DNA of 64,000 bases from positions 7,360,288-7,424,287 of the forward strand of contig NC_092676.1 of the NCBI RefSeq assembly GCF_964355755.1, given 5' to 3'. A program made the translations under genes and the position numbers. Positions 83-50,600 of the stretch are shown piece by piece (the first letter of the stretch is position 1; each line of letters starts with the position of its first letter). The notes under the pieces were generated by a model. The model was not told the DNA's origin, did no database searches, and saw nothing but the letters and a program-made list of their open reading frames with translations. The DNA is from Antedon mediterranea (lineage: Eukaryota > Echinodermata > Crinoidea > Comatulida > Antedonidae).

Positions 83-10840
<10,758 letters not shown>

Positions 10841-13890: not shown

Positions 13891-16800
13891 ATGGTTCGAA
13901 AAAAAATTGATAACCGAATCCGTGTCCTAATTGAGAATGGTATAGCCCTTGGACATCGGAGCATGTTTGTGGTTGTTGGCGATAAAGGGAAAGACCAGGT
14001 AAGTGAAATAAACCATTGTAATATGTAAACTGGCATGTACTGGCATAGATTTGTCCTTGTATACTGCTCTAATTAATGTACATCGCTTTGTTCTTCTTTT
14101 TTGGAATGCGCTTTATAAATCTATATAGTATAGTATAAAATGTCTGAAGTTTTAAAACAGAGAAACACTCTCGTAACAAGAGGTTCCACACATACAAAAT
14201 ATTTTAAAAAATCGAGTCATAGTTACAATATATAGTTCACAATTACAAAACGTCAGGCAGTACAAATTCTTCAGACCTAGTATTAACAATAAAAAATATC
14301 TAAATATAAATTTGTTTTTCAATATGTACCATACAGTACAGTAGCTTTAATATTAAAGATGATTTACTATTATTGTCCAAAATGGAGCAGATTGTTTTAT
14401 CTTGGTATAAATCGTATATGTCGTCTAGTAATATGTGATGCCTAAATTCTGTTGAACCATTTATAAAAATATCATTTGTTTTTATTTTTTGCAGGTGGTT
14501 ATTTTACATCATATGTTATCCAAAGCCTTGGTGAAAGCCAGACCAAATGTATTATGGTGTTATAAAAAAGAATTAGGATTTAGTAGGTAAGTATCTGTTT
14601 TGACTTAAAAAGTTATGTCTCATAGTCTACACTATCAAACTTTAAGCTCTGTCTACACTATCAAACAAAATGTTATGTGCCCATATACAGTATTGACATG
14701 ATCATTTCATCACTACCGTATTTGGGTATACTTGTTTTGTCAATCTAGTTTGATAGTGTAGACATAGCTTAGACTTTACCCAGGTAAGTTGGTTTCATGG
14801 GCACATGCTAGATATCTTCCTTTGGATCGTAGGAACCAAATTTTGGTAAATAACTAAGGCTCGGTCTACACTATCAAACTAGTTAACAAACAAATTGTGA
14901 TGTGCCCAAATTTTTGGTATTGATATGCCTAAATTTAGTAGTAATATGGCATCATGATGTTCATATATGGGCATATCACATTGTTTTGTCACTTAACATT
15001 TGATAGTGTAGACAAGGCTTAAGCCTCAACAGGTAGATTTTATGGCGCTATGGTACTTTTGCACCTGTGAGCAATTGAATTTTTTTTAATTGGGTAACCT
15101 CGAAAGAGAGATTGAGGTGCGAAAATGCAGCAGCGCCGATTTTACGATCTTGTAGTACATAAGTAGTATTTTGTTTTACGTTATTGATTTGTAATTCACG
15201 ATGTCACTTTGTCCGTTTTCAGCCATCGGAAAAAGAGAATGAGGCAGTTGCAGAAAAAGATAAAAAATAAATCGTTGAACCTGAATGAAGACGACCCATT
15301 TGAATTGTTTATAGCAGCGACCAACATTAGATACTGTTACTATTCAGAAACCCACAAGATACTGGGCAATACATATGGAATGTGTGTTTTACAGGTAACT
15401 CACCAATTCAGATTTAAGCCTGTGGGCTTATATGCAAGAATCAAATTTACAATATTTAATATCAATTATAGTATCTATGGTCCTGTTTCTGCTGCAAAAA
15501 AATGACCGTTTATTAACCATGTGAATAAGTTAACCCCAATTTCTTTGTAGCAGAAGTAGGAAAAATTTTCAATAACCGGTTAAATGGCAACCTGAAAATA
15601 ATGGTTAAAATCACCCAATCGAATTTGGTGTTAAAACGCCATGTAACCGGTTATTGTTGTGCAACTCTTAGCTGTAGTGCAAAATAACGGTTATGTGATA
15701 GCTGCTGACCTTGTGTAAACTAGTTGACCTATAGTGTTTAATGTTGGGTACAGTTTACTCTTTTTTTTTACTCTTTACAAGGTGTCTGAATACAATACAA
15801 TTATATAATAGATAGGATAGATCAAATAATTATATATATTCATACTAACATGTATATATATTTATATAAGTAAAACTTAAAAAAAGAGATAAGGGAAAGG
15901 GAAGAAAAAAGAGAAAGAAAAGTGAAAGGAGAAGTAAGGGGAAAAAAAAAGAGGAAAAAAAAAAAAAAAAAAAACAATAATAATAATAATAATGATAATT
16001 AATAATAATAATTATAAATAAATAAGGCAGTCAGTTTCTCTCTGTAAAAGAATAACTAAATAGAACAATAATACACAACCAAATACAGTAGAGCTAGCAA
16101 AACAGAGTTGGAGGAGCAGAGTCTTCACATATGAAGTTGGCTCCTAATACGAAGAAGAAGAACTACACTGCAGTGACGTTTGAATTGAGTGCCAGTGCCC
16201 ATTGCATTTTGACATTTCTGTCGACGACCACCCACTGATTTAAACAGTTATTTATGAGCAAAAATTGAGCAGAAATGCAGTCTATATAAAATAAATCTAT
16301 TTTAAAGTAAACAGTTTATTCGCCACTATGCAGCAACAGACCAGTTATATGTTTTTTTTTTAGATTTTAAATTGAATTTAATAATAGAATTTATAAAAAA
16401 AAAAATTTTCTCTAGGATTTTGAAGCCATGACACCAAACCTTCTTGCAAGGACTATTGAGACAGTCGAGGGTGGTGGTATTGTTGTCATACTATTGCGAA
16501 CGATGTCATCTCTAAAGCAGCTGTACACCATGTCGATGGATGTTCACTCGCGTTATCGTACAGAAGCGCATCAAGATGTGGTTGGTCGATTTAATGAAAG
16601 GTTAGTAAAATACTTGTTCAAGCACCTTTCACACACGACAACCCCCAACCACCCTTCGCACACGTCCACCCCAACCATCGTTCACACACATCAACCATCA
16701 ACCTCAACCATCCTTCACACACGTCAACCCCAACCACCCTTCACACACGACAACCCCCAACCACCCTTCACACACGTCAACCCCAACCATCCTTCACACA

Positions 16801-19800
16801 CGTCAACCCCAACCATCCTTCGCACACGTCCACCCCAACCACCCTTCACACACGTCAACCCCAACCATCCTTCACACACGTCCACCCCAACCATCGTTCA
16901 CCTTCATAAAAGTGTTTTATTCAAATAACATCTACCAGAACTCAAGCTACTCAAACTAAGGCAATTTAACAACAGGACACAGCTCGCCTTGCCAAGATAT
17001 ATGAACTCGTAACAGTCCTTTGATCTTATGTCTGGCTGCAACATATACCAACACTACTGGTACTCTACGGTGTGCAGTGTCTGTTAAGTTGCGTGGAACT
17101 AATCATGTTGCAGCCACAGATAAATCCTTTGATCTCCGGAGCTCAGCATCCTGTTGTTAGTTTGCCTTGTTCAAACCTTCCATTAATAAATAGCAATACT
17201 TGTCTATAAAAATATCATTTCCATATAAACTTGGCTCAAGTTGGAGGCATGTTGGGCACAATATTTTTGAGAACAGTCCATTATTATGTGGAAGAATTCA
17301 TAATTAATATGAAATATTTGTTATTGTTATTTTGTAGATTTTTATTGTCATTAGTGTCCTGTAAAGAGAGTATGGTGATTGATGACCAATTACAGATACT
17401 GCCACTGTCGTCACATGTGTTAACTATCACACCTGTGCCACCTAAACCAAAGGTACATACAGTAATTCTGTCCTGTAATATTTTTTGTTGTATTCATTGC
17501 CATGGTATACCATGCCATCATAGGCATTTTAGATATTATTCATTTTAATGCTAAAACGGTTATTTTTTCTAAAAACTGTCCAGATATACAGTGGCCAAGT
17601 CTCTGTCTTGTTGGCATAACTTGGCCGTAGCCTGATTCGCTGTTAGTTCTTACTATCCTATTCAAATACACCATTATTTACTATTTAAGGCCAATTTACA
17701 TAGACGAGTGGTAACATTAAGCGGAAAACCGTGTAGCTTGTCCCATGTAGAGTCTGTATCTATTCTCAGCGGAAACCACATGTCCGCTCCACGTTGTGCG
17801 TAAATAGTCATAAGAAATAACATAGCTGTCTATGTTTGTATTAACGTTACCACTCGTCTCTGTAAATTGGCGTTACAGGACAGTTTTATATTATTAAATC
17901 GAAACGTAGCACACGTATATATTGGTTCAACGTAAAGAAATTATATAGTATTGTAAATAATTATTAATTTTTAGGATGAATCTTTGAGTCCTAATGATCA
18001 AGAACTTGCGAGTTTAAGGGAGTCATTGCAGGATACACAACCAGTAGGCACACTTATTAACTGCACTAAAACACTTGATCAGGTAAGCAATTGATATTGT
18101 ATACATGGGTTCAAGGATGTAGTCAATCAGATGTGCTGAAACGAGTCATGTGTGCACTCTTTATTTTTCACTGGAGTGCAAAAAGAAAAAGCATCTACAC
18201 ATTATACTATAGCCTCAATCTTTCTTTTTTATCTTTGGAAGGCTAAAGCCTTGTTGAAGTTTGTTGAAGCTATTTCTGAGAAGACTCTGAGATCAACAGT
18301 TTGTATGACTGCTGCACGTGGTAGGGGCAAGTCGGCTGCTCTCGGGCTTGCTATGGCAACTGCTGTTGCATTCGGGCAAGTAAAATAATGATTTTCTTTG
18401 TATTATTTATTATTATGTTTTGTACGTTAGAATGGTCCTGCTTAGCACTTTTATAACTTGAGCATATTATTTATTTTTATAGATATTCCAATATATTTGT
18501 GACATCTCCTAGCCCTGAAAATCTTAAAACTTTATTTGAATTTGTTTTCAAAGGATTTGACAGTTTAGAATATCAGGTAAATATAACCAACATTATTGGG
18601 TTTTATTCTCATGTTTTGCTATCACTAATTCTCATATAATTAATTGAAAAATTGATGGAGCATAGACTTCATTATTTAGTATTTTGTGAATCTGTATTCA
18701 ATTCAACATTTATTTCGACCAAAATCAGCAAAAATGTATAAAAACAAAACAACAAAGCATTTGGTTAAGTAACGACATAGAGACTCAAAAAAGTCTTATC
18801 ACTGTCGTACCTCCTCATGACAGATAATAATTACATAAGGTGTGTAAAAATAGAGACAATTTTACAATCAATCACAAAAAAACCAAAAAATTTAACAGTT
18901 GACGGTCTGTAGTCAATGAACAAGAACATAAATTGTAATTCTAACTATGAATATTCATCAGGAACACATGGACTATGAGCTCGTCCAATCAACCAATCCT
19001 GATTTCAACAAGGCAGTCGTTCGTGTCAACATCTTCAGAGAACACCGGCAGACAATCCAGTACATTCATCCGTCTGATGCTCACAAGCTAGGCCAGGCAG
19101 AGCTGGTTGTCATTGATGAGGCCGCAGCAATTCCTCTTCCTTTAGTTAAGAATCTGCTAGGCCCGTATTTGGTATTCTTGTCATCAACAATCAATGGGTA
19201 ATGTAATCATCATATAATGATGTGTAAAGGCCAACACAGACAGCATTATACGACAAGGCCCAATGAAACGTCTTGACTCGTTGATACCGTCTCCGGTGGA
19301 ATTCTGACGAGACAAGTCGTCTTGGGATAGCCTTGGGTAGTTTTAGGTGGTTAGGGCAATTTTGCACCAACGAGACGAGCTTCGTTGTACGATGCTATCT
19401 GAGTTGGCCTTAATAAAAATAGGACAGATACACATTGGACATTAATCTTTCATTCAACATTTGTTGTTTATATCTCTTTCAACTCTTCTTCAACATTGAT
19501 CTTGCAAAAAAAACTGTTTTTCCGGAATGAGGTTTCTAGAATGAATTCCCATTGATAAACAGAATTAGGACCTTCTTAGTTATTCCGGGTATCCTCTAGT
19601 ACAGAGTGCTCAATTACAGTAATAAAACCCTAGTGGTCTAATGGTAGGATGTCTGTATGTCAAGCAGAGTTTGGGTGGCTTTTTCCCACAGATTTCCTCA
19701 TCTATGCCTGTAAAATGAATATGAATGCACAAAGAAGAATTTAAAATGAATGACTTTTATATTCATTTCTTTTAGGTATGAAGGTACAGGTAGATCATTG

Positions 19801-22800
19801 TCTTTAAAGTTGCTCCAACAGTTACGACAACAGAGTTCATCTGTAGGATCAAACACCAAAGGAGGTGGTACCAAAAGCACTGATGCTGGGGCCTCTGCAT
19901 TTGGTAAATATTTTATTTTTTTTGTAATTTCTTGAATTTTGTATTATATTCTACTCTTCTCCTATCCAAATCAAACTTCTATATGAATTTATTTCTGGTC
20001 ACTCTTTAGTATCCTGTCTGCATACTAGCTTTATCAAAGGCAATTATATTTTGATCCTAGTCAGTCAGTAATCGAAATCTATTGTACTTCTAAGAAGGTT
20101 AAAGCGTAGCAGTTTCTGACACAGCTGATTTTCCACTAAGTAAATTTGTTCGCACAAATCCAACATTTTGCAGTAAAAAAGAAATTGTGCTACACTTTCC
20201 ATGGTAAGAGTGAATAGCTGTGATTTTCATGTTCATCGTGTGTCTGCTGAGCTTTTCGATTCGCATAAGTGCTCATGAATTTTTTTTAGCTCTTTTGGTT
20301 GTGGAATTTTTTTTCGCTTCACTCATTTTTGTATAATTTATTATTTTGTATGTTTCAATTTTGTATATTTTTATTGGTCTAGGTACATGCATGTAAAAGT
20401 TACCCACAATCTGGCCTTTGGCCACTAGTGGTAACTTGTGGCATGGTGGTGTCTAATGTTTTTGATGTTTTATATGAAATAAAAGAATAATATAAATGAT
20501 TGAGCTACCAATTTCACGGAAGCGAAAAACTCAAGGAACTAGAATTCGTCGCAGAGAGGAATTTGGAAGATAGAAGCATGAATACGTATACATATTTTAT
20601 AAGCATGAATATGTATACATATAATGTTACACTTTCGATTTGCGTGAACAAATTGGTCTAGTGGAAAATCGGCTTAAGAACTAAGATTCCTAGCTGTTGC
20701 TGTAATTGCATTAATTGAATAATGTTTTCCTGTTTAATTCCTAGGCCGTGTATTGCATGAGGTCGTGTTGAATGAATCCATTAGGTACTCTCCAGGAGAT
20801 GAGGTTGAAAGCTGGTTAAATTCTCTACTGTGTCTCAATGTTGCTGAGGTGCCTAGGATAGGATCTGGATGCCCCTTGCCGGATGATTGCGATTTATATC
20901 CTTAATTTTTCTGTTGATTGTCCAGCGCTTATTAATAAGGCACCTTGCATTTTGCACTGTATTAAATCGAACTTTATTATTATTATTAGTTAATGCTATG
21001 TAATTTGTTTCTACATTTGACCTTAATTTTGGTCAATAAGTCAATCAATGTTTTTAGGCTAAAATTTGAATGTAGAAAGTATATTTCATGTTTTTTGGGG
21101 ATTTTTTATTAAATGTTCGTATAAAATTATGTACGTTAAACCAGTAATAGATACGTATGTGTAACTGGATGTTAGTGGTTGCGTTGCTCTACAAATTACT
21201 ATCAAAGCTACTCCTAGCAACCACTAACATCTAGTCATTGCCAGATGAAGATTTAATGACAAGTCGAAACGTTGCACATGTACATATTTATTAGTGGTTA
21301 ATTTAATGTAAAGAATTGTATACAGATATTGAATATAAAACCAGATGAAAACATTTTTCAAAGATAAAATACATTTTTGAAATGTAAAGAATTGTATAGA
21401 GATAATGTAATTTATCTTAAAATAGCCATTTTCTGTGTGTGTGTTTCTTAACAATATCCACATATTATGTGAATAGAGATTCATTATTTAGTTACCACAA
21501 AGGTTCTGAGGTGTTTCTTCAGAGGTTAATGTCCATCTATGTAGCAGCTCACTATAAGGTATGTAAGTCTCAATATGTCCATCATCTATACACAACATTT
21601 GGCTGTCAAAGATGTGCGGTATTTTCCCCAAAAAACATGAAAAGTGAAGATTAATAAAATCAGACTTTAAATAGGCCATTTTGTAATTTTAATCAAGTTA
21701 TTCACTTCCATATAAAAAATATGAACACAAATAATGGTTTAACTTATAATAAGACAAAATAAACTGTTAAATTTAACCAAAACCCCTTTGTCTGACAGAC
21801 AATTTGACTATTTTTTGCTTTAAATTAGAATTTTTAAGGTACTGTAAATTATTATTTTTTTGATGCAATTTTTTGTTAAAGTTAATAACTATTATGTGAC
21901 ATTAAAATGGCATATTCAACAACAAAATTATTTTTCAGGTGGACAATATATATTTAAAGCTCTCTCTGCTCTATCAAACTAGTGTGATATGTTTAAATAT
22001 TGTAGTGATATGACATCATCATGTCCATATATGGGCACATCACATTTTGTTGTCACATAGATAGTGTAGACAGAGTTAAGGTTATATAATTTGATTTGTT
22101 CCCTGATTATCACTCAGCCTCTTGGTGCTCTATTCTAAACCCATACCTAGGTTACCCCAGCAAGGAGATTGTTCAATATAAGATTTAAAGATGTATTGTC
22201 CCCCTGAAAAAATAATTCTTAACAAAATTGTTGTTGAATATGCCATTTTAATGTAACATAATAGTTATTCACTTTGACCAAAAATTAGATAAAAAAAAAT
22301 GTATTTACCTGAAAAAAATGTAATTTAAAGCCAAAAATTGTCAAATTGGCTGCCAGCCAATGGATTTTGGTTGAATTTAACCATTTATTTATTCAATTTA
22401 TAGGTGAAAACATTATTTGTTTTAATTTTTTTTCTATGGAAGTGATTAACTTTAATAAAACTACAAAATAACATATTCAAAGTCTGATTTAATTTATCTT
22501 CATATTTCATGTTTTTGGGGGACAATACATCTTTAAATGAAATTTTTTTTGTTCTATTTCTCCTTCAAATTAGAATACACCAAATGATCTTCAGTTGTTA
22601 TCAGATGCCCCAGCTCATCATATCTTCTGTTTGTTAGGACCAGTAGACACTACACTCAACACGTTACCAGAGGTGCTCTGTGTATTACAGGTATGTCTAA
22701 ACAGATATTGATTTTCAAGAAATGTCTTTGTATACTAAACAATGACAAAAAAATATTTTAATATTATTATAATAATTCCATATATAATGTACAACAATCA

Positions 22801-25800
22801 ATACAAAATGGAAAATCACACTAATATAGGATTTTCTACCATTTAGTGAAGAGATTTGAAGATTGTAACAGATAGTTTGTAGTACACCTAACAAGAATTA
22901 TTTTCAATGTGCAAAATAACTCTAGTATTTGTTTGTATTTAGGTGTGTCTTGAGGGTGAGATCTCCAAGGCAACCATTATGAACAGCCTGTCTAAAGGCA
23001 AGAGAGCCTCTGGTGACTTGATTCCATGGACGATATCTCAACAGTTTCAAGATAACGAGTTTGCTAGCCTGTCAGGAGCAAGGGTTATCAGGATTGCTAC
23101 TCATCCAGATTACCAAGGAGTAAGGCTCTGTCTACACTATCAAACTAATTTGACATAAAAGTGTGATATGCCCAACTTTGATAGTGATATGACATCACAT
23201 TTTGTTGTCACATAAAATTTGGTAGTGTAAACAGAGCTTAAGGAAAACAATTACTTTTTTTTTTTTTAAATAAAAACTTAAGCCACTGTCGAGTGGGCAG
23301 ATGAGAGAGTGCCTTAAAGTGTCTGCACTGACATGACATGATGCTTAGGGGAGAAACATGTAGTTGAAAAGTGTAACATCTGAGTCCACAGCACCATGAG
23401 CAATGATCCAATCGCTATACAAGAACTTGTATATAATTAGTATGTAATCATTAAATCGTTGTTTGTGTGGAAGGAAGGCTATACTCGATAGTAGTGGCAG
23501 AGACCTAAAGTTGAATGCCAAAGAAATGTTACTATTGTTTACTGTTTCTTAATTGCATTAAACAATTTTATGCTTAATTTTCAGATGGGCTACGGTCGAA
23601 GGTCATTGACCTTGCTGCAGCAATACTATGAAGGAAAGTTCCCTAGTTTGAACGAGGCAACAGAAAATGTGAAAGATATTCGCACTGTAGAAAATGAGGT
23701 ACGAGCATTTAAATTAATGCAAATTTAAAATAATGCAAATTTAAATTTATGCAAATTTAAGATGCAAATAAAAATAATTGCAATATGTCTTCGATTTTGT
23801 TCCATCGAACATCATACAAACAGAATATTATATTTTTGAGATTTGTTTTCTTTTTATGTTGCAGGCTGTTGATTTGCTTGAAGAAGTTATTGCCCCAAGG
23901 AAGACTTTACCTCCTCTGTTGTCCAAGTTAAATGAGAGGCCAGCTGAGCAGCTGGACTACCTTGGTGTCTCGTTTGGGCTCACGGCAGACTTGCTTAGGT
24001 ACTGCTCTTCATTGCTATGCTTGTTGTGCCATATATTGAAGCATAACTACCCAAATTTACTGTTATATATTTATATTCATTATATAATTTAATAATCTAT
24101 TTAATAAGAACTATTAAGAACTAAAGAAATGTTTTCTATGATAGATTCTGGAAACGATCTGGCTTTGCCCCAGTTTATTTGCGACAAACACAAGTAAGTC
24201 ATATGCCATACTCCGTATTTATTCGAATTAACGCCCTGCTTTGAATAAACACATAGACATAGCTTTATTCATCCTTAAATTTGGAAATTACAGTGTTATT
24301 AGCTTTCTCTCTCCATAAATATAAAAACAGAATTAAATAAAGACAAAAGAACGGACACATCTTCTATTGAAAAGGCCAATACCTCTTGGAATGAAAGAGT
24401 TGGGATATCGGTTCGTGTTAGCCGTCGGTACCCGCAGTCTACCGCTGCGTTGTACTATGCAACTGCTAATAGTCGAATGCAATGAGTGACTTTCGTCAGA
24501 CGTTGCGTCATCGAACTTACCAGCTTATCGTTCTTGGTAGACCGAGTGCACCGACTGCAGTTCTGTACCCCTCTAGAACAAACGCCACAGGGCCTTTATT
24601 TGTTTCCTCGAATAAACGTCCCGCCACATGCAAATATTATATTACACATTTCTATTTGTAGTAGAATTCATTGATTGACATGTTCTACAATTTACCAAGC
24701 ATTTTGATACAATTTTTACTGTATTTTATCACTTCTTGATATAAATTATGTTGTTGTATTTTTTTTATATCTAGGGGTATTTATTTGATTGTACATGTTA
24801 CCATATTACACCCAAAAAAATAAACGAATAAAGGCCCCTAAAAACCCTCCTGAACAATAAAAGTAAATAAATATGGTATTGAAGCATAACTAGCCACAAT
24901 ATTTTCAAACTGGATACTCAAAGAATTCTCAATCAAGGAAAATATTGTTTTTATTAAATTCTCAATTTTGTTCTTAGAATGAATTAACTGGTGAGCATTC
25001 TTGCATTATGCTGAAGATGTTGAGTGGTGAAACAGAGAACAATGATGACTCGTGGCTTATGGCATTTTACAAAGGTGAGGATGTTTCTCTTAAGCATAAG
25101 ACAGAAGAAGTATGCTTAATGGGCAGAATTTCTTTGCAGTGTGAACACACTATAGTAAGGGGACGCCGCTATAATAAGGGGACGCCGCTGTGATGAGGGG
25201 ACGCCGCTGTGATGAGGGGACGCCGCTGTGATGAGGGGACGCCGCTGTGATGAGGGGACGCCGCTGTGATGAGGGGACGCCGCTGTGATGAGGGGACGCC
25301 GCTGTGATGAGGGGACGCCGCTGTGATGAGGGGACGCCGCTGTGATGAGGGGACGCCGCTGTGATGAGGGGACGCCGCTGTGATGAGGGGACGCCGCTGT
25401 GATGAGGGGACGCCGCTGTGATGAGGGGACGCCGCTGTGATGAGGGGACGCCGCTGTGATGAGGGGACGCCGCTGTGATGAGGGGACGCCGCTGTGATGA
25501 GGGGACGCCGCTGTGATGAGGGGACGCCGCTGTGATGAGGGGACGCCGCTGTGATGAGGGGACGCCGCTGTGATGAGGGGACGCCGCTGTGATGAGGGGA
25601 CGCCGCTGTGATGAGGGGACGCCGCTGTGATGAGGGGACGCCGCTGTGATGAGGGGACGCCGCTGTGATGAGGGGACGCCGCTGTGATGAGGGGACGCCG
25701 CTGTGATGAGGGGACGCCGCTGTGATGAGGGGACGCCGCTGTGATGAGGGGACGCCGCTGTGATGAGGGGACGCCGCTGTGATGAGGGGACGCCGCTGTG

Positions 25801-28800
25801 ATGAGGGGACGCCGCTGTGATGAGGGGACGCCGCTGTGATGAGGGGACGCCGCTGTGATGAGGGGACGCCGCTGTGATGAGGGGACGCCGCTGTGATGAG
25901 GGGACGCCGCTGTGATGAGGGGACGCCGCTGTGATGAGGGGACGCCGCTGTGATATGGGGACGCCGCTGTGATATGGGGACGCCGCTGTGTTAAGGGGAC
26001 ACCGCTGTGTTAAGGGGACACCGCTTTTTGTGAAACAAAGGGTTTTGATACGGCCAACCTCTATTTAGGAGACACCCATATTAAGGGGGCACCGCTATTA
26101 AGAGGACACCACTATTTGTGAATATCCTATTCGTGAAACTAAAGGTTTTAATACTATGGCCAACCTCTATTTGTGAAGCAAGCAAGAGGAATGACAACAC
26201 ATTCAGCCCCAATTTATAACTCCTATACAATGCAACCCCTATAAAGCACACACCTTCAGAACCCAGCAAAGTGTCCCCTTAATAAATAGATGTTCTACTA
26301 CTATATATGCATTGTTATAAATAAACTATACTTGCATATTACAAAAATTGATTATAATAACTTTACCTTAACTATTTGTTTTATAGATTTTAGGCGGCGT
26401 TTCTTGTCATTGCTTTCATATCAGTTTAAGACATATCAGCCAGGGTTAGCCCTGAATGTACTCCATCACAAACAGTATAAGCCAAGTGTACAAGGTAGGT
26501 TGTATATACGTATGTTATGTTAAGTTTCATTTTGGCTTTTGAAATCTGTTTAAACCTACATTATATAATATAAATAGACCCAGTCCACTAGAGCTTGGTT
26601 TCCACTAGGGACGCAACGTAAGAAAATGCCCTTCTAATAATTGTGTTTCACCTCGAGTACTTGACTACGCGATGTAATATGTTTCTTCTGCGTTCTTGCG
26701 TTGTTGCCTGGAATAAAACTGATTTGACACGTGTTGCGTCGTTGCGTCCTAGTGGGAACCACGCTTTAGTTGTCTAACTTGCATAATAAATATAATATAA
26801 TTTAATTTTTTATTAGCATTAACAGCAAGGGAGTTGGAGATGCACTTCACTAAGTACGACCTGAACCGTCTTGACCTTTACACTCGTAACATGGTGGACT
26901 ACCATCTCATCATGGACATTCTACCAGGAGTGGCCAGACTTGTGTTTCTTAACAGGATGGACATGCATTTGTCCGCAGTACAATCGGTCAGTTTAATTAT
27001 TTTTATATGTTTTTTTTATAGTTAAGAAGGAATTTAGGAAGCTGAACATTTTTTAAATACATTAATTCTAGACTATTTATTTATTAAGATTTAATTTATT
27101 TTAATAAACATGCAAATATACACAATATTGTATTACAACAAATTTCTATTTGTAGTCGAATTTTTCTACTGTATTTTACCACTTCTTGGTATTAGTTGTG
27201 TTGTTTTTTTATATCTAGGGGTATTTATTTGAATATACATGTTACCTTATTAGACCCAAAAAAATAAATGCCCCCTAAAAGCCCTTGAATATATATGGCA
27301 TATTAAAAGTTTATTATGTTTTTTTTTCCTAGGCCATACTCCTTGGAATGGGTCTACAACACAAAACAGTCGATGACCTTCAGAAAGAATTGGATTTGCC
27401 TAGTTCACAAATCCTAGGTCTGTTCATCCGTATTATGAAGAAGATAGTGCAACACCTCAATGGCATCCAGGAGAAGGCAGTGGAGGAAAATATGGCTGAG
27501 GCAAAGGAAGTGATCATGGAGCCTACCAGACAAACAATGGACGAAGAAATGGCAAGTGAACATGATTTGATCATTATTTTTAAATTTTATGCGCCTTCTT
27601 TGTTTTTATTTTATTCCAGTTCACTCACTCAGCACTACAGTCTGCTTCATAGTCTCTATTTTGTCCACGTACTCTCACTTGCACTGATGAAGGGCTAGTG
27701 TTGCCCAAAAGCTCTACTAATATTTCTTGCTGTTTTACTTTACTGTTTTGATTAGCTTTTTGCTTATATTATTTTGTATCTCCATTTAGATACAGCAATT
27801 GATACCCACAGCATTGTCATTTTTTCATTCATTTGCCTTTGGATTTATATCATATTATATCTTTGAATGTATTATTACTTTATTAAACAAAATGTATGCA
27901 GTGCGAATTGAACTGTTTTTATAAGCTTTTAAGTTTTAAGAAATTAATGATGTGCGAGAGTAGTATTGTATGCAAACGAATAAATGTTTTTCAATGAAAA
28001 AATTCCTCACTGATTCAAAGAAATACAAAGCATATTATTATACCTGCTGAATCCAGAGTAAACTATTATATTATCTGCCACTCCTATCTTGAATCAAACA
28101 TCAAAAACTAGACCATTACAAAATTAGGAGCTCTGATTTTGGCTTTGGGATCAGAGCAGTTAAGTACACAGCATGTAGTACTATATATGCTACAACCGTG
28201 TTTACACCTCACTTTACTAGTGTTTTTATCCACCATGAAAGCCTCCAAACAATATTGTATTTACTGATTAGACTTTAGTATGAGTCTGGATCGCTTTATT
28301 AGCGACTTCTGTCTAAAGCTCTGTCTACACTTTCAAACTTTATGTAACAAAAAAAATGTGGTGACCGTGTGCCCATATATGGACATGATGACATCATATC
28401 ACTACCACATTTGTGCATACCATACCACAAACTAGTTTGACAGTGTAGACAGAGTTTAAGACAGTGCAATAGTTTACTTTTTTTTGAATTAGGAAGTCAG
28501 ACCATTTAGATTGCTTCCTAAAAACTTATATGAATTATGGAACACAGTTGTTCCTTATCACCACATTCTATTGTAAGGTTAAAGGTCATACATTTCATGT
28601 TGTGTTCTAGTTTGTGGATTCAGTGAAGCGTAACATGCTATATAGAAGTAGTGAATGTTATTCTATCGATTTAGATCATCTTGTTTGATGATAATATATT
28701 TGTGTAAAGCATGTGTTTTAATAATATTTTGGTTTCATTTTAAATGTATTTCATTTGATATACTGTACCTCTCTTTTTTGTTTGAATAAGGAACTAGGAG

Positions 28801-31800
28801 TTAGTACCTACGTTCAGACACACCAATACTATTGTATCTTAGAGGTTATTAAAACTGGTTTTTTTTAACATTCCTAAATTTCATGAGAAGAATAGACTCC
28901 TAAAGACCTGTTTATACTAAGAAGTTAATAAACAATGATACAAAAATAAATAAAATTATTTATTCTGTAATTTAATTGATTTTCAGTATTGTGCATCCAT
29001 TAAACATACATAAGTCATGGGTAATGAACTATACAGTTGTCAACATTTTACTATCTCATTTTGGGTTTTTCCCATCTCATTAATATTCATGCTTTTATGA
29101 TCACATGTTCCATCAATCATAATTTTTGTTTTTTTAACTCTTTTTGGCTCCCAATTAAAAAAAAGATTCATACATATGTTAAATTTAACAATAGGAATTA
29201 AATGTTTGCATTGTGTTTTGTGTTTGTGATTGAATAGGCAGTATAACATTTAGTTTATAGCAGTTGGTAATTATGATGTGTACTTATAGCAATCTGTGTG
29301 TTATACTTTGATTGGGTGGGCTTTATGGAAACGCCAGTTTATTTAATTTGGCTATTAATGATTATCACACATGCACTACAAAAATACAAAAAAAAAAAAA
29401 AACATCGAAAAAACCAAAAAAAAAAGAAAAAACTCACATAAAATACAAAAAAAAAAAAAAGTTTAGAAAAAACCAAAAAAAAAAAAATAGTGTAATGTGT
29501 TTGCTTCAGTTTATTTCAGTTAATTTCATTACATTACCTGGGCGAGTGATTATCGTACCTTTCAATGGCCTTTCCATATAGACTGCTTTTTTAGGTAGGA
29601 ATTGTCTTCCCCATTCTTCACATGAAAATCAGTGTTATTTCATCCAAATGTTACTATTTTCTCAGCACTTTAAACTAATATAATTTCTAGTGTTCTGCAA
29701 GCATTTCGTTCACTATTAAAATCGCTTTTTAATTAAATAAATGACTGGCCCACTTAAGACACACCCGGCCCACAACAGGAATAAATGGCACAAAATAGTA
29801 GAATGTGCTATGTCTAACAGCCATGAAGCGTATTGACATAAATATCGATATCGGTAACAATTTCAGTATTAATTCATTCACCATTTTAAAAAATGCGTGT
29901 GTGAAAATAATAATTGTAATAATTCGGGAGGTCAAACTGTGTTACAACTTTTAACAATGTGAAAAGGGTATAAGTCTTGAATTATTATTATCATTGTTTA
30001 AATAAATAAACTTGAAAAGTTTATTTATTGTTATGCCGTACCTACCAGTAACTACTATATTAACAAAATCTTACTTATTATAATTCTTAGAATATAGAAT
30101 TATTTATTCTGTAATTTAATTGATTTTCAGTAGGCCTATTGTACATCCATTAAACATACATAAGTCATGGGTAACTGAACTATACAGTTGTCAACGTTAC
30201 TATCTCATTTTGGGTTTTTCCCATCTCATCAATATTCATGCTTTTATGATCACATGTTCCATTCATAGAAATAATCATAAAATGTTGTTTTTTAACTATT
30301 TTTAGCTCCCAATGTTAAAAGCAAATGCATACATTTGTTAAAGTTAACAATAGGAATGAAATGTTTACATTGTGTTTTGTGTTTGTGATTGAATAGGCAG
30401 CATAACATTTAGTTTATAGCAGTTGGTATTTATGATGTGTACTTATAGTAATCCGCCAGTTCTATTTTGATTGGGTGGGCTTTATGGAAGCGCCAGTTTT
30501 ATATTGTTGATTAGTTTAGCGCTACCAAAAATCCAAAAAAAATGCATATATATCAAAACCACATAAAATTACAAAAAAAGGAAAAATATTACAAAAAGCA
30601 AAAAAAAATAAATAAAAAGGTAGTTTCTTTTCAGGGCGAGTGATTATCGCACCTGGCTTTGGCCTTTCCATATAGACTGCTTTTTTAAAGAAGAAAATCT
30701 CTCACCACACACTAACCTTACCAATTCGTTATCCACCTGAAAGTGTATTTTAACCAATTATTACACTATTTTCTCAGAACTTTTTTAAAGGAATACTCAT
30801 AAATATTATCAGAAAATTCACCAAAAGTAAAGTTAAACTTATAATAATAATAATAATAATAACTGGTACTTGATATAGCGCATTATGCTGAAAGCCTCAA
30901 TGATGGTCTTAGTGTTGTAAATAAGTAACTGAATAGTCCCTTCAGTGGATTAAAGCACTACACAACCAATTTATTTATTTATTCAGGTGACGCTGGCAAA
31001 ATTTGCTAAATTATTTTTAGAAAACTATCCACCTTATATTTTTGTATCCTTATTTCGATAAAAAAAATACATTTGCAGCCAAAGGCTGAATTGCTGCGTT
31101 TTGTACAATAAAATTACAATATTATTAAAATGCAATAGGTAACTTGAGTGTTTTTAATTTAAGGATCTTTCTACTTCATATGCTAGGTTTAATTGATATC
31201 TATAAAAATGTACACACCCATGCAAAGACAAGATTGATATTTGCATATAATTTAAGCATATAATCAATATCACAATTCTATCAAGAAGTTCTACTTAAGT
31301 TCAAATTGAAATTTATACTGTAATTTGTAATTAAATTGTTTTGTTTTTTTATTGTAGGAAGAGGCTGCTGTTGAGATTGAAAGTAAACATAAGAAGGAAC
31401 TTGAACAACTTAAATCATTGGATCTTAGCCAGTAAGTGAATGAATATATATATAGATGTATTTGTTTTGGCTTCTCTCATGCTTAAGCTCTGTCTAAACT
31501 ATCAAACTTTATGTGACAAAAAAAATGTGATGTGCCCATATATGGACATGATGATGTCATATCACTACCATATTTAATAATAATAATAATAATAAATGAA
31601 AACTTATATAGCGCCGGTATCCTCCACCCATGTGGCGCTCATGGCGCTTTGTGCATTAACAACGTGCGAGAACATCAGCGAATAGCGATGTCTTTAGGTT
31701 GGTCTTGAAACTGTTTAGACTAGTTGAGCATTTAACTGTTACTGGTAAGCTGTTCCATACACTTGCGGCCGCAACGTAAAAAGATCTCTGACCCCATTGA

Positions 31801-44631: not shown

Positions 44632-47600
44632 ATGGAGACACAGCTGTTGGAGATTGTGACAAAAAAGAACATATATGGACCTTTTGCAAGATGTTCCATA
44701 TTCCTGATCAGTGTATCATTGATTGCAGCAACAAAGACAGGTTTGGTTTAATGAAAAAAATAGTATTTCCCATTTGATCCAGAAGTAGGCCCACTCATGT
44801 CAAATTGCCCAATGATCTTCTCCCATGTTTGAATTAATTTTCATGCAAAATGATCTACGAAGGCCCTTTGATATCAAACTGTCATGTCAATAATTAGCTA
44901 GCTAGTAGCAACAGTGAAATCCGTACTTTAGGACACATTCATAGAGACTCCCGATTCATGGGACACCCCTAGATAAGGTACACCCCAATTCAGAGGACAC
45001 CCTTATTCAGGGTACACACCCCTTTTCAAGGGATAAGAGGACACTTTCTAATGAAACAAATAAGGGGGCAATATATTAACCTTGGGTTCCAAAGGTGTTT
45101 CCTTAATAGAGGTTCTACTTAATTAATGTAATCTAACTGTAATAATATCACCCTTTAAAAGTTCACTGTTTTCTTCATTTTTTAGAAGCTGCCACTATAC
45201 CTCTGGAGCCCTCTCCATCTGTCACAAGCAGGATAGACCAACTGCAAACGGTGTTGCAATCTTCTGATACCAACAACCTCCCAACACAATCGGCACCATT
45301 CACCAGTAGACTTACAAATGATGATGTTCCCACTGCTACTCCTGCTCTGTCATCAGTGGTGACCACCCTGACATCAGGTGAGGATGATGTGATGTTGCAG
45401 ATCATGAGTAGTAGTAGAGAAGATGGAACGGAGAAAACTATGCCAATGATCACACCAAGTGAGATTATGTCACAAGAGGAAGACCTACTTGTAGTACTGA
45501 CATCCACATTAGTTGGTAGTCTACTGCTAACAACTGATGACCTGTTGACATCTTATAATGGATTACCTATAGAAAGCACAGCTTTTCAGTCAACTTCTTT
45601 GTTTGCTTTTAATGATCAATCACTCAGTCATATCAAGACAGACAGTGAAGAGCTGACATTGCTAACATCAGAATCCATAAGGATGGCTTCAGATGTTTCT
45701 AAGACCCTTTTAAAAGATTTTATTTCAACTTCTGACAATATTGATGTTGATATTTTGACTTCAGCTGGTTTTGATAGTCAATTTTCTACAATCAGTATGT
45801 CACAAAGTGTCCTGGAGTTTATGCAACCGTCATCATTATTGCCATTCCAACTATCTGAAATGATTTCATCTGAAATGATGTCATCTGAAATTGGTAGAAC
45901 TGACAATTATGTATCAGAGTATAAGAGTACTTATAGCATCTTGGAATCAAGTTATGTAGAATTTGTAAGTAGCTTTGAAGATTTACTATCAATTGGTGAC
46001 ATAAGACAACCTTCAACAAGAAGTGGAATGACCACAGAAGGTATGTTATTCAGTACAATTGTGCAGACAGTGTCATCCTATGTGGATATGGAAAACTCTG
46101 ACATTGTGATATCAAAAGACCTTGATGATGTAACATCTCTGCTTCAAACACAACCACTTTCATCATCAGTCACCTATTTGGCAGGTTCCTCTATCACACC
46201 AGTAGACTATTCTTCTAAGGAAGCCATGAGCATTGTCCCAAGTCCAGTCACCTTGTCTGGAACAACAGTTTTAGAAGAATCAAATATGTTACTGTCTTCT
46301 GAAACATTCTGGGATACCATGTTAGGACAATCAGCTTTTTCATCAGAATCACAGACACCATCTTTCATTTCAGTGTACGAAAGTTACAGTTTTGATGGAA
46401 GTAGAGTTTCAGCGACTCAATCTTCACCATCACAATTCCAAACACCATCATTGACATCAATGGATATTGGCCAATATTCTGAAGAGCATTCTTTAATACA
46501 AGTAACAACTTTATTCGATTCAACTGAAGTTCCTTCTGTGGAACCCATCATAATTTGTTTCACCACAATAGTGACATTGCCAAGTTCAATGGCAACATTT
46601 CAGTTTGGCGGTACTTTAAACACACCAGATATTACATTATCAGAAGAGAGTTCTACACAGAGTCGCTACTGGTACTCCACAGATATAAATTCCACACAAT
46701 ACAATAACTGGCCAACAATGGAAGACAGCTTAAAACCATCTCATTTGGAAGTTTCATCAGTCTTGCAAGAGAATATGGAAACTACTCCTTACATGATTTG
46801 GAAATCAATTACAGACCACTCTTCTGACACAAAGTACTTGACAAGAAGTGATACACAGGAAAGTTACCAGACTACCTTTGTATCTACATTATTTGAAGAG
46901 AGTTTGGTTTACAGTACTATTACATTAGAATATTCTTCTGGACTTGAGGCAGAAGACATGCATATGGTGTCTAGTGCAGAAGTTGATATCAATACCTTGG
47001 GTGTTCATCATGTAGAAAAGCGAGCAGCTCTTGTCGATCAGTCTTCTCAGATTGAAACTGAACAATCTCTTTTGATGTCAAGTAAATTGGAGCCATTAAC
47101 TTCATTAGATCTGCAAAGTAGTATATTAACATCTGGTGTTACAGAGTCTTTTATGTTTTCTAATATTGAAACATCTCTTGATAATCCTACAGCAACTGAT
47201 ATGGAACTGATTGTAACCACAACCTTACAACCAACATTGTTTGCAGAACCATCAATAGTGGATAGTAGTCTTCGTGAGATACTAGACATTATTTATGCTA
47301 CATCTTCTGGAACTTTCACTGAAACAATGTATTTGTCAAGTTTCACTGGAACCCTGTTACCAAGTTCCTCTGAGACTCCATCATTAGTGTTGGATTTTAG
47401 CAGTCTTTTAGAACGTTCAGACATGCTTAGCGGCATCTATACCAGCCCATCAATAAACCTTACCACTCAGTCATTCTCTCCATCATTGTCTGGTGCTTTG
47501 TTACAGACAACAGAAAGCAATTTCAGCAATGCACTTGACATCAGCACCTTCATAAGTACTATTTATGCCACCAGTCTAATAACCCTTTCAGACATAACAA

Positions 47601-50600
47601 TGCTACAAACATTATCTAGTACACCACCACAAAGTGATAACACCTTTCTTTTAACTGACAGTGTTATGTTATCACCAACATTTTCTGAGTTTTCCAGCTC
47701 AACATTGCTACCAACAATCTCTGAGACACCACCAATAATATTTAGTAGCATTGTTTCAGAAAGGTCAAGCACTAATGATGTTAAAGCTACAGCTACTCAA
47801 ATTGACTTCAGCAATCTACCATTACTATCAACATTCTCTGAGACACCAGTAATATTTAGTAGCAGTCTTTCAGAAAGTTTAGGCTCAAACAATGTCAATG
47901 TTACGGCTACTCAAATTGGCTTCAGTGAACTTCTTTTACTGTCAACAGTTTCTGAGACACCACCAATAATATTTAGTAGCAGTCTTTCAGAAAGTTTAAG
48001 CTCAAACAATGTCAATGCTACGGCTACACAAATTGGCTTCAGTGATCCTTTACTATCAACACCAATTATTGAAAGTTTTTCTGTAAGTGAAGTCTTTCTT
48101 GTGGAACCCACTACATCTGAACTATCTAAATATCTGGAGGAGACATTCATAGTGTGTACAACTATTTATCCATCAACAGTTATGAAATCATCAGAATATT
48201 CTGCTTTTACATCTGAAATGAAGGTGCCATCATCCGATCAATCTTCCATGACTTCAACTGTCAAAGAATTGATGACCTTGGAACCATCAACTTTCTCAAT
48301 CTCTGATTTTTCTGAAGTAATTACACCATCACCTCCTGGAGCTTCAAATTCTTTAACCAAATCCTCTGATATGTCATTACTAGAATCGGAGCTCATTATA
48401 GAGACTGTATCATTCACTACTTCTAACCCAACAGGTGCCATCTTCTCGTCAGAAACATTAGAGACATCGGTAATATCTACTCTATTAGTAATTACAGACA
48501 TTGATGTCATGTCCAGCACCTCTGGATTAGATGCTACATTTTTATTTTCTGATTCATCTTCATTAATGGGTTCTGTGGAGTTGCCAAGTAGTTCAGCAAC
48601 TCCAAATATGCTGACAACGTTTCTACTGTCTGCCTCACCATCTTCATCAAGATTACCAGAGCAGTCATCCAGTTCATCTTCTGTAGTATTTCCAAGTTCA
48701 TCCAGCTCAGCTCCTACAAGTAGCAGATCACTAGTGACACCAGTTGGTACAACAAAGAAGAGCTATGTCACATTGGACACATCCTTTGGTACTAAACCAG
48801 CATGGCTTCAACTTGGTATGTACCTTTTTCAATATATTCATGATGATACCTTGATTTTGGTTTTCAGTTTATCTTGTAAAAACAATACAAAGCAATAGCA
48901 AGCACATCAGATGTATGTATATAATGTACTGTTACTTTAGATTTTAACGCATTAACAACATGGAGTCATTTTTTTTCAATTTTTCTCCAAATTCATGTTA
49001 TCTAAAGTAGTAATATTATCAATATTGTTATATTAATGTTTTAAAAATTAGTGTCTAGTAATATATTAACTTTATGAACTAAGAACTAAAAGAAAATATA
49101 TATACATTTCATACAGATATGTTTTCTTAAATTATGTTTTTTCAAGACTTAATGGCTTGCCATGTCTAACGACATTGTGATAAATTACTCAACTCGTTTG
49201 AAATTTAAAAGCTCTGCGTTCCTTGCTGAACTCAAGTTTCACATTACGGTTTATGTATCTGTTTCCATACAGACTCTCAGCTTGCATTTCTAGTTGCTTT
49301 AGGTCAACAGCCTAAAAGTGTTTTTCGTCCTTAATAGCCGAATCCTACTTAAGTAGTGTGAGTTATTGCTGTGTATGTTCTACTTGTGGAAATGTAGTCA
49401 AACAACAAACATTAGTATTCCTGAACATTCCGAAAATGGTTTTATTCTGTCTATTTATACTTGCTATTGATACTTTTACTTTACTATTTATCATAAGTAA
49501 TAAATGGATTCCTCCTTGTCCATTTACACTTGGTTGAAATGTTTGATAATTAGTTTTCTTGTTAAAGTAACTTGATGTTTAAATGTTGCATACAATAACT
49601 CAAAGCATAGCATTACAATGTCTCCATTAGACATCATAATATCTCGTTTATGGTACCAACTGCCCCTAGCATTAATTCACTTTGTATAGCGTTATTTGAT
49701 ACAATAAAGTCCTACTATTTCTTAAATATTGTAAAATTTGATTTTACTTTTAATTACCGGTTGTAGTACAATGTTATAGGCTCCATAGTACTGTGTACTA
49801 TTAAAGTACTACGGCATATGACTGAGTATGCTCCAATGCTCAAACATACCTTATTACTCAATTTAAGATAAATTGGGAGAGAAAAGATTTTGATGAATAC
49901 ATAGTTAATTCAATCCGAGTGTAATTCCACCAATATTGTGTATCCAGGATATGATATTTCTTTTCGTACATAAGTTGGGGAACCCCTAAATGAAACACCA
50001 CAAAATTCATTAGTCATCCATAAGGTGTGACGTAAGAATTGACATGAATACAATTCGCTAATGCAAATGTTTAGCCGAATAAATTAGACTATGGACTTAC
50101 AGTAGCATGTTGATGTATGGGGTTCGATTCCCATGAGCAACTTATTTACTTTAATAGTGTGAAAGAGAGAGATTATTGAGTGTAGGATTTTGTTATATAT
50201 TTAGAAAGTATTTTGGCTTTTTTTCACATAAAAAGTCCCCAACTTATGTACGAAAAAAAAATCGCATCCAGGCCCCAATCGGTCACATACAGTATATATA
50301 CATAATATAATAATATAAATATAATAATTATATACATTAATTAATGTAAAATCCTGTTTTATTGTTTTGGATAGAATTTGAAGTCCCAGTTTCTGTTGAC
50401 ATAAAATCACTGGACTTTATATCGGAGATTGAGCGCAGACTTGCCTCAGCATATATTCAGGCTCGAAGCGAAGAATTAGGATCACGGAGACGCAGAGCAG
50501 TTACAGTTGAAGACGTCACTACACAGGTTTTTACTATATTTGAATTTGTTTTTTCAGAAGCAATGTACCAATCTCGTTTTTAATCATAAAATCTTAATTT

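Follow-up and report, generated by a model that had tools for sequence, protein, structure and literature searches.

A U12-type AT-AC intron predicted in the NAT10 gene of the crinoid Antedon mediterranea

Does the RNA cytidine acetyltransferase gene NAT10 of the crinoid Antedon mediterranea carry an intron of the minor-spliceosome type? The question is raised by a 64,000-nt stretch of contig NC_092676.1 (assembly GCF_964355755.1, positions 7,360,288 to 7,424,287), the whole of which is called the window here, where a sequence-only reading had placed an AT-AC intron within NAT10. From the genomic sequence, we consider it almost certain that the intron at 20896-21461 is a bona fide U12-type AT-AC intron. 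It is ordinary in kind, an example of a known intron type. The letters and coordinates first given for it are exact (ATATCCTTAA from 20896, AC at 21460-21461, TTTCTTAAC at 21444-21452), and its assignment to the minor spliceosome agreed with every sequence feature that could be tested. The features concerned are the following, in window coordinates.

13891-27548, + strand: NAT10 (RNA cytidine acetyltransferase) orthologue, 21 exons found, with the C-terminal end past about human residue 936 outside the model
20745-20895, + strand: exon upstream of the AT-AC intron, ending in ...PLPDDCD followed by positions 1 and 2 of a Leu codon (phase 2)
20896-21461, + strand: predicted U12-type AT-AC intron of NAT10, 566 nt, phase 2
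20896-20904, + strand: U12-type 5' splice site ATATCCTTA, 8 of 9 positions matching RTATCCTTT
20903-20905, + strand: in-frame TAA that would be met on retention of the intron
21444-21452, + strand: U12-type branch site TTTCTTAAC, 8 of 9 positions matching TTCCTTRAC, followed by nine more bases of intron
21460-21461, + strand: AC of the 3' splice site
21462-21558, + strand: exon downstream of the intron, YYVNRDSLFSYHKGSEVFLQRLMSIYVAAHYK

The exons of NAT10 were located by local tblastn with stretches of the human protein. In a phmmer search, the window exon peptides reach 1244.9 bits against the human NAT10 chain of PDB 7mq8, and the Pfam domains TmcA_N, NAT10_TcmA_helicase and GNAT_acetyltr_2 follow each other in this order on a 552-residue part of the model, so that both domain order and the close human match place the gene in NAT10. 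The two exons flanking the AT-AC intron reach about 124 bits to human NAT10 and about 89 bits to fungal chains. The joined model is stop-free over 954 codons, the final 20 of which lie beyond 27548 and are unsupported; the sequence coding for the carboxy end, from about human residue 936 on, was not located. Fourteen of the 20 junctions were scored against the human protein, and the 6 others, around three short exons, were set by eye and then checked. The resulting introns comprise 18 with GT-AG ends, 1 with GC-AG and 1 with AT-AC. The best-scoring join is GT-AG at 11 of the 14 scored junctions and GC-AG at one (18376-18482), and AT-AC is among the best-scoring joins at 20896-21461. In a poorly kept linker, at junction 19904-20744, the GT-AG join lies 12 points under the best join. 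The GC-AG intron is 107 nt long, with the donor GCAAGTAAA.

The protein itself fixes the place of the AT-AC junction, where human NAT10 has CELYYVNRD, aligned without gaps; the split codon corresponds to human Leu507. At this place the intron opens with ATATCCTTAA at 20896 and ends with CAATATCCAC, giving the AT-AC ends. It had been claimed that a single join keeps the CDLYYVNRD reading. When donors 20860-20929 and acceptors 21380-21499 were enumerated, five joins were found to keep PDDCDLYYVNRDSL exactly, because the bases at both exon edges allow a shift of the join. They have the ends AT-AC for 20896/21461, and TA-CA, AT-AT, TC-TA and CC-AT for the other four. Among A-type minor introns, AT-AT ends occur rarely (PMC8280824). 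Counted by hand, the donor of the AT-AT join, ATCCTTAAT, agrees with the U12 donor at 3 of 9 positions, and therefore 20896/21461 is the fitting join. The claim stands in a narrower form: among the five joins that keep the peptide, one combines AT-AC ends with a donor that fits, and GT-AG ends occur in none.

U12-type introns have a donor like RTATCCTTT and a branch site like TTCCTTRAC, the latter some 10-20 nt upstream of the 3' end. Both signals are present here, with the branch A 10-11 nt from the intron end. After the branch motif, the last letters up to 21461 are AATATCCAC. The AT-AC intron is the only one among the 20 introns of NAT10 where donor and branch signals occur together, the remaining 19 donors agreeing with RTATCCTTT at 2 to 5 of 9 positions. 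Branch-like motifs are seen in the GT-AG introns 25075-26386 (TACCTTAAC, 8 of 9; donor 3 of 9) and 23120-23584 (7 of 9; donor 4 of 9). The former also contains a minisatellite (25158-26025, unit of 19 bp, 45.7 copies, 99% alike). Under a first-order Markov background and with these consensus motifs, a donor of at least 8/9 at a given position has a probability of 0.00045, and a branch motif of at least 8/9 in the last 45 nt one of 0.0074; their product is about 3e-6 at a fixed junction. Of 20,405 AT/GT positions on the two strands of the window, 26 reach a donor score of 8. Elsewhere, GTATCCTT occurs at 31044, within no recognised gene.

The machinery that would read these signals was searched for in the 354-Mb genome, as the sequence-only reading had proposed for the four minor small nuclear RNAs (snRNAs), and all four were matched above the gathering score. 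Scoring covered the 40 to 49 best candidates per search, which makes the copy numbers lower bounds: at least one match for U12 (125.7 bits), at least two for U11 (88.6 and 82.9 bits), at least one for U4atac (97.6 bits) and at least one strong match for U6atac (136.6 bits). The same searches gave no match in 14 control genomes. The stretches that pair with introns are kept in the snRNA alignments, with one change just outside them in U6atac. In duplex predictions, TCCTT of the NAT10 donor pairs with AAGGG of U11 (one G-U) and with AAGGA of U6atac, and the U12 of this genome pairs with the branch site leaving the A at 21450 unpaired. A second U6atac match (L006, G000:C7:8523554-8523655) reaches 33.7 bits, the cut-off being 33, and has several unpaired stem positions and gaps; it looks like a pseudogene.

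Protein families of the minor spliceosome were matched as well, with two pieces of the PDCD7 family, one of zf-SCNM1, three of zf-U11-48K at two places, and five of the CCDC84/CENATAC family at one locus. The presence of CENATAC fits a reader of AT-AC introns, because 92% of A-type minor introns were affected in human cells depleted of it (PMC8280824). Between the CENATAC pieces, position 895 of locus L007 reads ATATCCTTAG, possibly a U12-type donor or a chance occurrence.

Vertebrate NOP2/P120 carries an AT-AC intron, and a second AT-AC intron was sought through donors of the form [AG]TATCC[TC]T on the + strand of three NOP2-like loci (L013-L015), where no such donor was found. A useful control for the NAT10 intron is offered by the syntaxin-6 family; the fly and human STX6 genes are both tabulated with an AT-AC U12 intron (PMC2831892). 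In the gene of this family in A. mediterranea, the Pfam domain STX6_10_61_N extends over two exons whose matches join up along the profile (positions 3-67 and 65-99). They are separated by a predicted intron of 1253 nt with the donor ATATCCTTGA, an acceptor ending in TTTTAC and TTCTTTAAC before the end, and the joined peptide is open. Of 596 open joins in the range tried, 5 have GT-AG, GC-AG or AT-AC ends, all of them AT-AC, and one of these five listed joins has a U12 donor. The syntaxin-6 gene of this genome thus shows the donor octamer of NAT10 and predicted AT-AC ends. NAT10 is another gene, and the likeness of the syntaxin-6 intron to that of fly and human is one of gene family and predicted AT-AC ends.

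Compared with U12-type AT-AC introns in general, the NAT10 intron is the same in its donor ATATCCTT, near-end branch site TTTCTTAAC, AC end and phase 2, and no difference in kind was found. The sequence-only reading had called AT-AC introns a small minority even among U12 introns, which is somewhat overstated: they make up 24% of minor introns (PMC8280824) or about 26% of the human ones (PMC10639083), and the GT-AG to AT-AC ratio ranges from 3:1 to 1:1 across U12DB genomes (PMC2831892). AT-AC ends are shared with U2-type introns, among them intron 21 of SCN4A (PMC2831892), and 85 major AT-AC or related introns are counted in PMC8280824, so the NAT10 intron might be spliced by the major spliceosome. 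The U2-type AT-AC introns of sodium-channel genes have G at +5 (PMC2831892), whereas the NAT10 intron has C there, along with a donor fitting the U12 type at 8 of 9 positions and a U12-like branch site nine bases from its end, followed by AATATCCAC alone. We therefore consider a U2-type intron very improbable.

A modelling error, with an ordinary GT-AG intron or another exon structure in place of the AT-AC one, would accord with the GT-AG ends of 18 of the 20 introns in the gene. Moreover, at junction 19904-20744 the best join is also not GT-AG, and where conservation is poor, scores against the protein may by themselves favour a wrong join. Against this, no GT-AG join exists at 20896-21461 within the human-scored range (donors 20877-20914, acceptors 21439-21480). 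A wider test admitted GT-AG, GC-AG, AT-AC, AT-AG and GT-AC ends and gave 45 in-frame, stop-free joins; there was no GT-AG among the 25 closest in length, and the GC-AG joins among them alter or lose conserved residues. Donor GTs at 20840 and 20849 would cost about 15 residues, and those at 20913, 20920 and 20959 sit beyond the stop at 20903. Such an error is extremely unlikely in our view. An assembly or sequencing error that erased a normal splice site hardly deserves belief either, since a donor and a branch site, each with 8 of 9 matches, would have to stand where they do by coincidence (about 3e-6) and the rest of the NAT10 model is stop-free.

Some observations weigh against a U12-type intron in NAT10. 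Its donor and branch site are each one base off the consensus. The octamer ATATCCTT occurs once in the 64-kb window, compared with a mean of 3.7 in shuffles; as it is expected 3.7 times per window, its mere presence proves nothing, and its evidential weight comes from its place, the single copy coinciding precisely with the protein-defined junction. Regarding the machinery, one of the five CENATAC pieces (profile 267-320, L007 and G000:C8:4687433-4687594) crosses an in-frame TAA, which is perhaps an exon edge, and zf-U11-48K also matched one of the 14 control genomes, an archaeon, and is weak evidence alone. Finally, no processed retrocopy of NAT10 was found in the genome, where all six matches are the window's own gene.

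Regarding how a U12-type intron here would be removed, U11 acts before U6atac at the donor of such introns. In NAT10, ATATCCTT would be read by U11 and then by U6atac, and TTTCTTAAC by U12. The minor spliceosome would then join 20895 to 21462, the junction reading TT followed by ATATTATGTG, and the helicase part of NAT10 would run on into the acetyltransferase domain. We infer splicing by this machinery from the signals and the snRNAs encoded in the genome.

Part of the intron is occupied by a repeat.

21099-21374, + strand: interspersed repeat within the NAT10 AT-AC intron (intron positions about 204-479)

Its search, in which 40 of 215 candidates were scored, listed at least 54 matches including the query, with some places matched on both strands. 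An inverted repeat (21164-21182/21217-21235) lies within it. The repeat matches reach intron position 479 at most, and therefore neither splice signal is touched.

Other repeats are found in the window outside NAT10. An exact tandem repeat at 205-484 (69 bp, 4.1 copies, 100% alike) lies in an exon of a TPR gene that we take to be CTR9. Each of four copies closes with ACTGTAAGTA, which makes a good donor site, and lengthens the open frame by 23 residues. The array is either a recent in-frame duplication that left four consecutive donors or a product of faulty assembly. Another tandem repeat, at 6664-8587 (16 bp, 120 copies, 96% alike), contains long minus-strand open frames that look like by-products of the repeat. 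An open frame of 1250 residues at 45146-48895 is rich in Ser/Thr, has no Pfam match at E 0.001 and seems mucin-like by eye.

What would retention of the intron mean for the protein? In the 552-residue NAT10 query, the Leu at the junction has number 384 and the GNAT match sets in at residue 405, so that a retained intron, with its TAA at 20903, would end NAT10 about 21 residues ahead of the GNAT domain match. The protein would then probably be truncated, with loss of the acetyltransferase part. The sequence-only reading also held that NAT10 of this species depends on the minor spliceosome; the U12 signals and the stop that retention would expose make this a fair inference, the dependence itself being predicted from the genomic sequence.

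Our literature search found no paper naming NAT10 as a minor-intron gene, and the papers retrieved for NAT10 seemed, judging from titles and opening lines of abstracts, to deal with other matters; such gene lists are mostly in supplements, and we make no claim of novelty. In the extracts used from the main texts of PMC10639083, PMC2831892 and PMC8280824, NAT10 does not appear. Relatives of NAT10 with introns were also sought in the collection viral_contigs, where 4 stretches matched the pattern and none was confirmed, and relatives in the prokaryote collection genome_contigs, where a 51-residue exon query gave 374 stretches, none of them confirmed.

If the intron is spliced as read here, NAT10 belongs to the genes that need the minor spliceosome in A. 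mediterranea, and gene-finders that accept only GT-AG introns would split or shorten it at this point. It may also be, as a rather doubtful extension, that the intron is old and widely kept, and that a shortage of minor splicing, especially of CENATAC, would cause the loss of cytidine acetylation in rRNA and tRNA. The position of the intron before the acetyltransferase domain and the predicted effect of its retention fit this idea. If true, an old and conserved AT-AC intron in NAT10 would be a direct link of minor splicing to the making of ribosomes.
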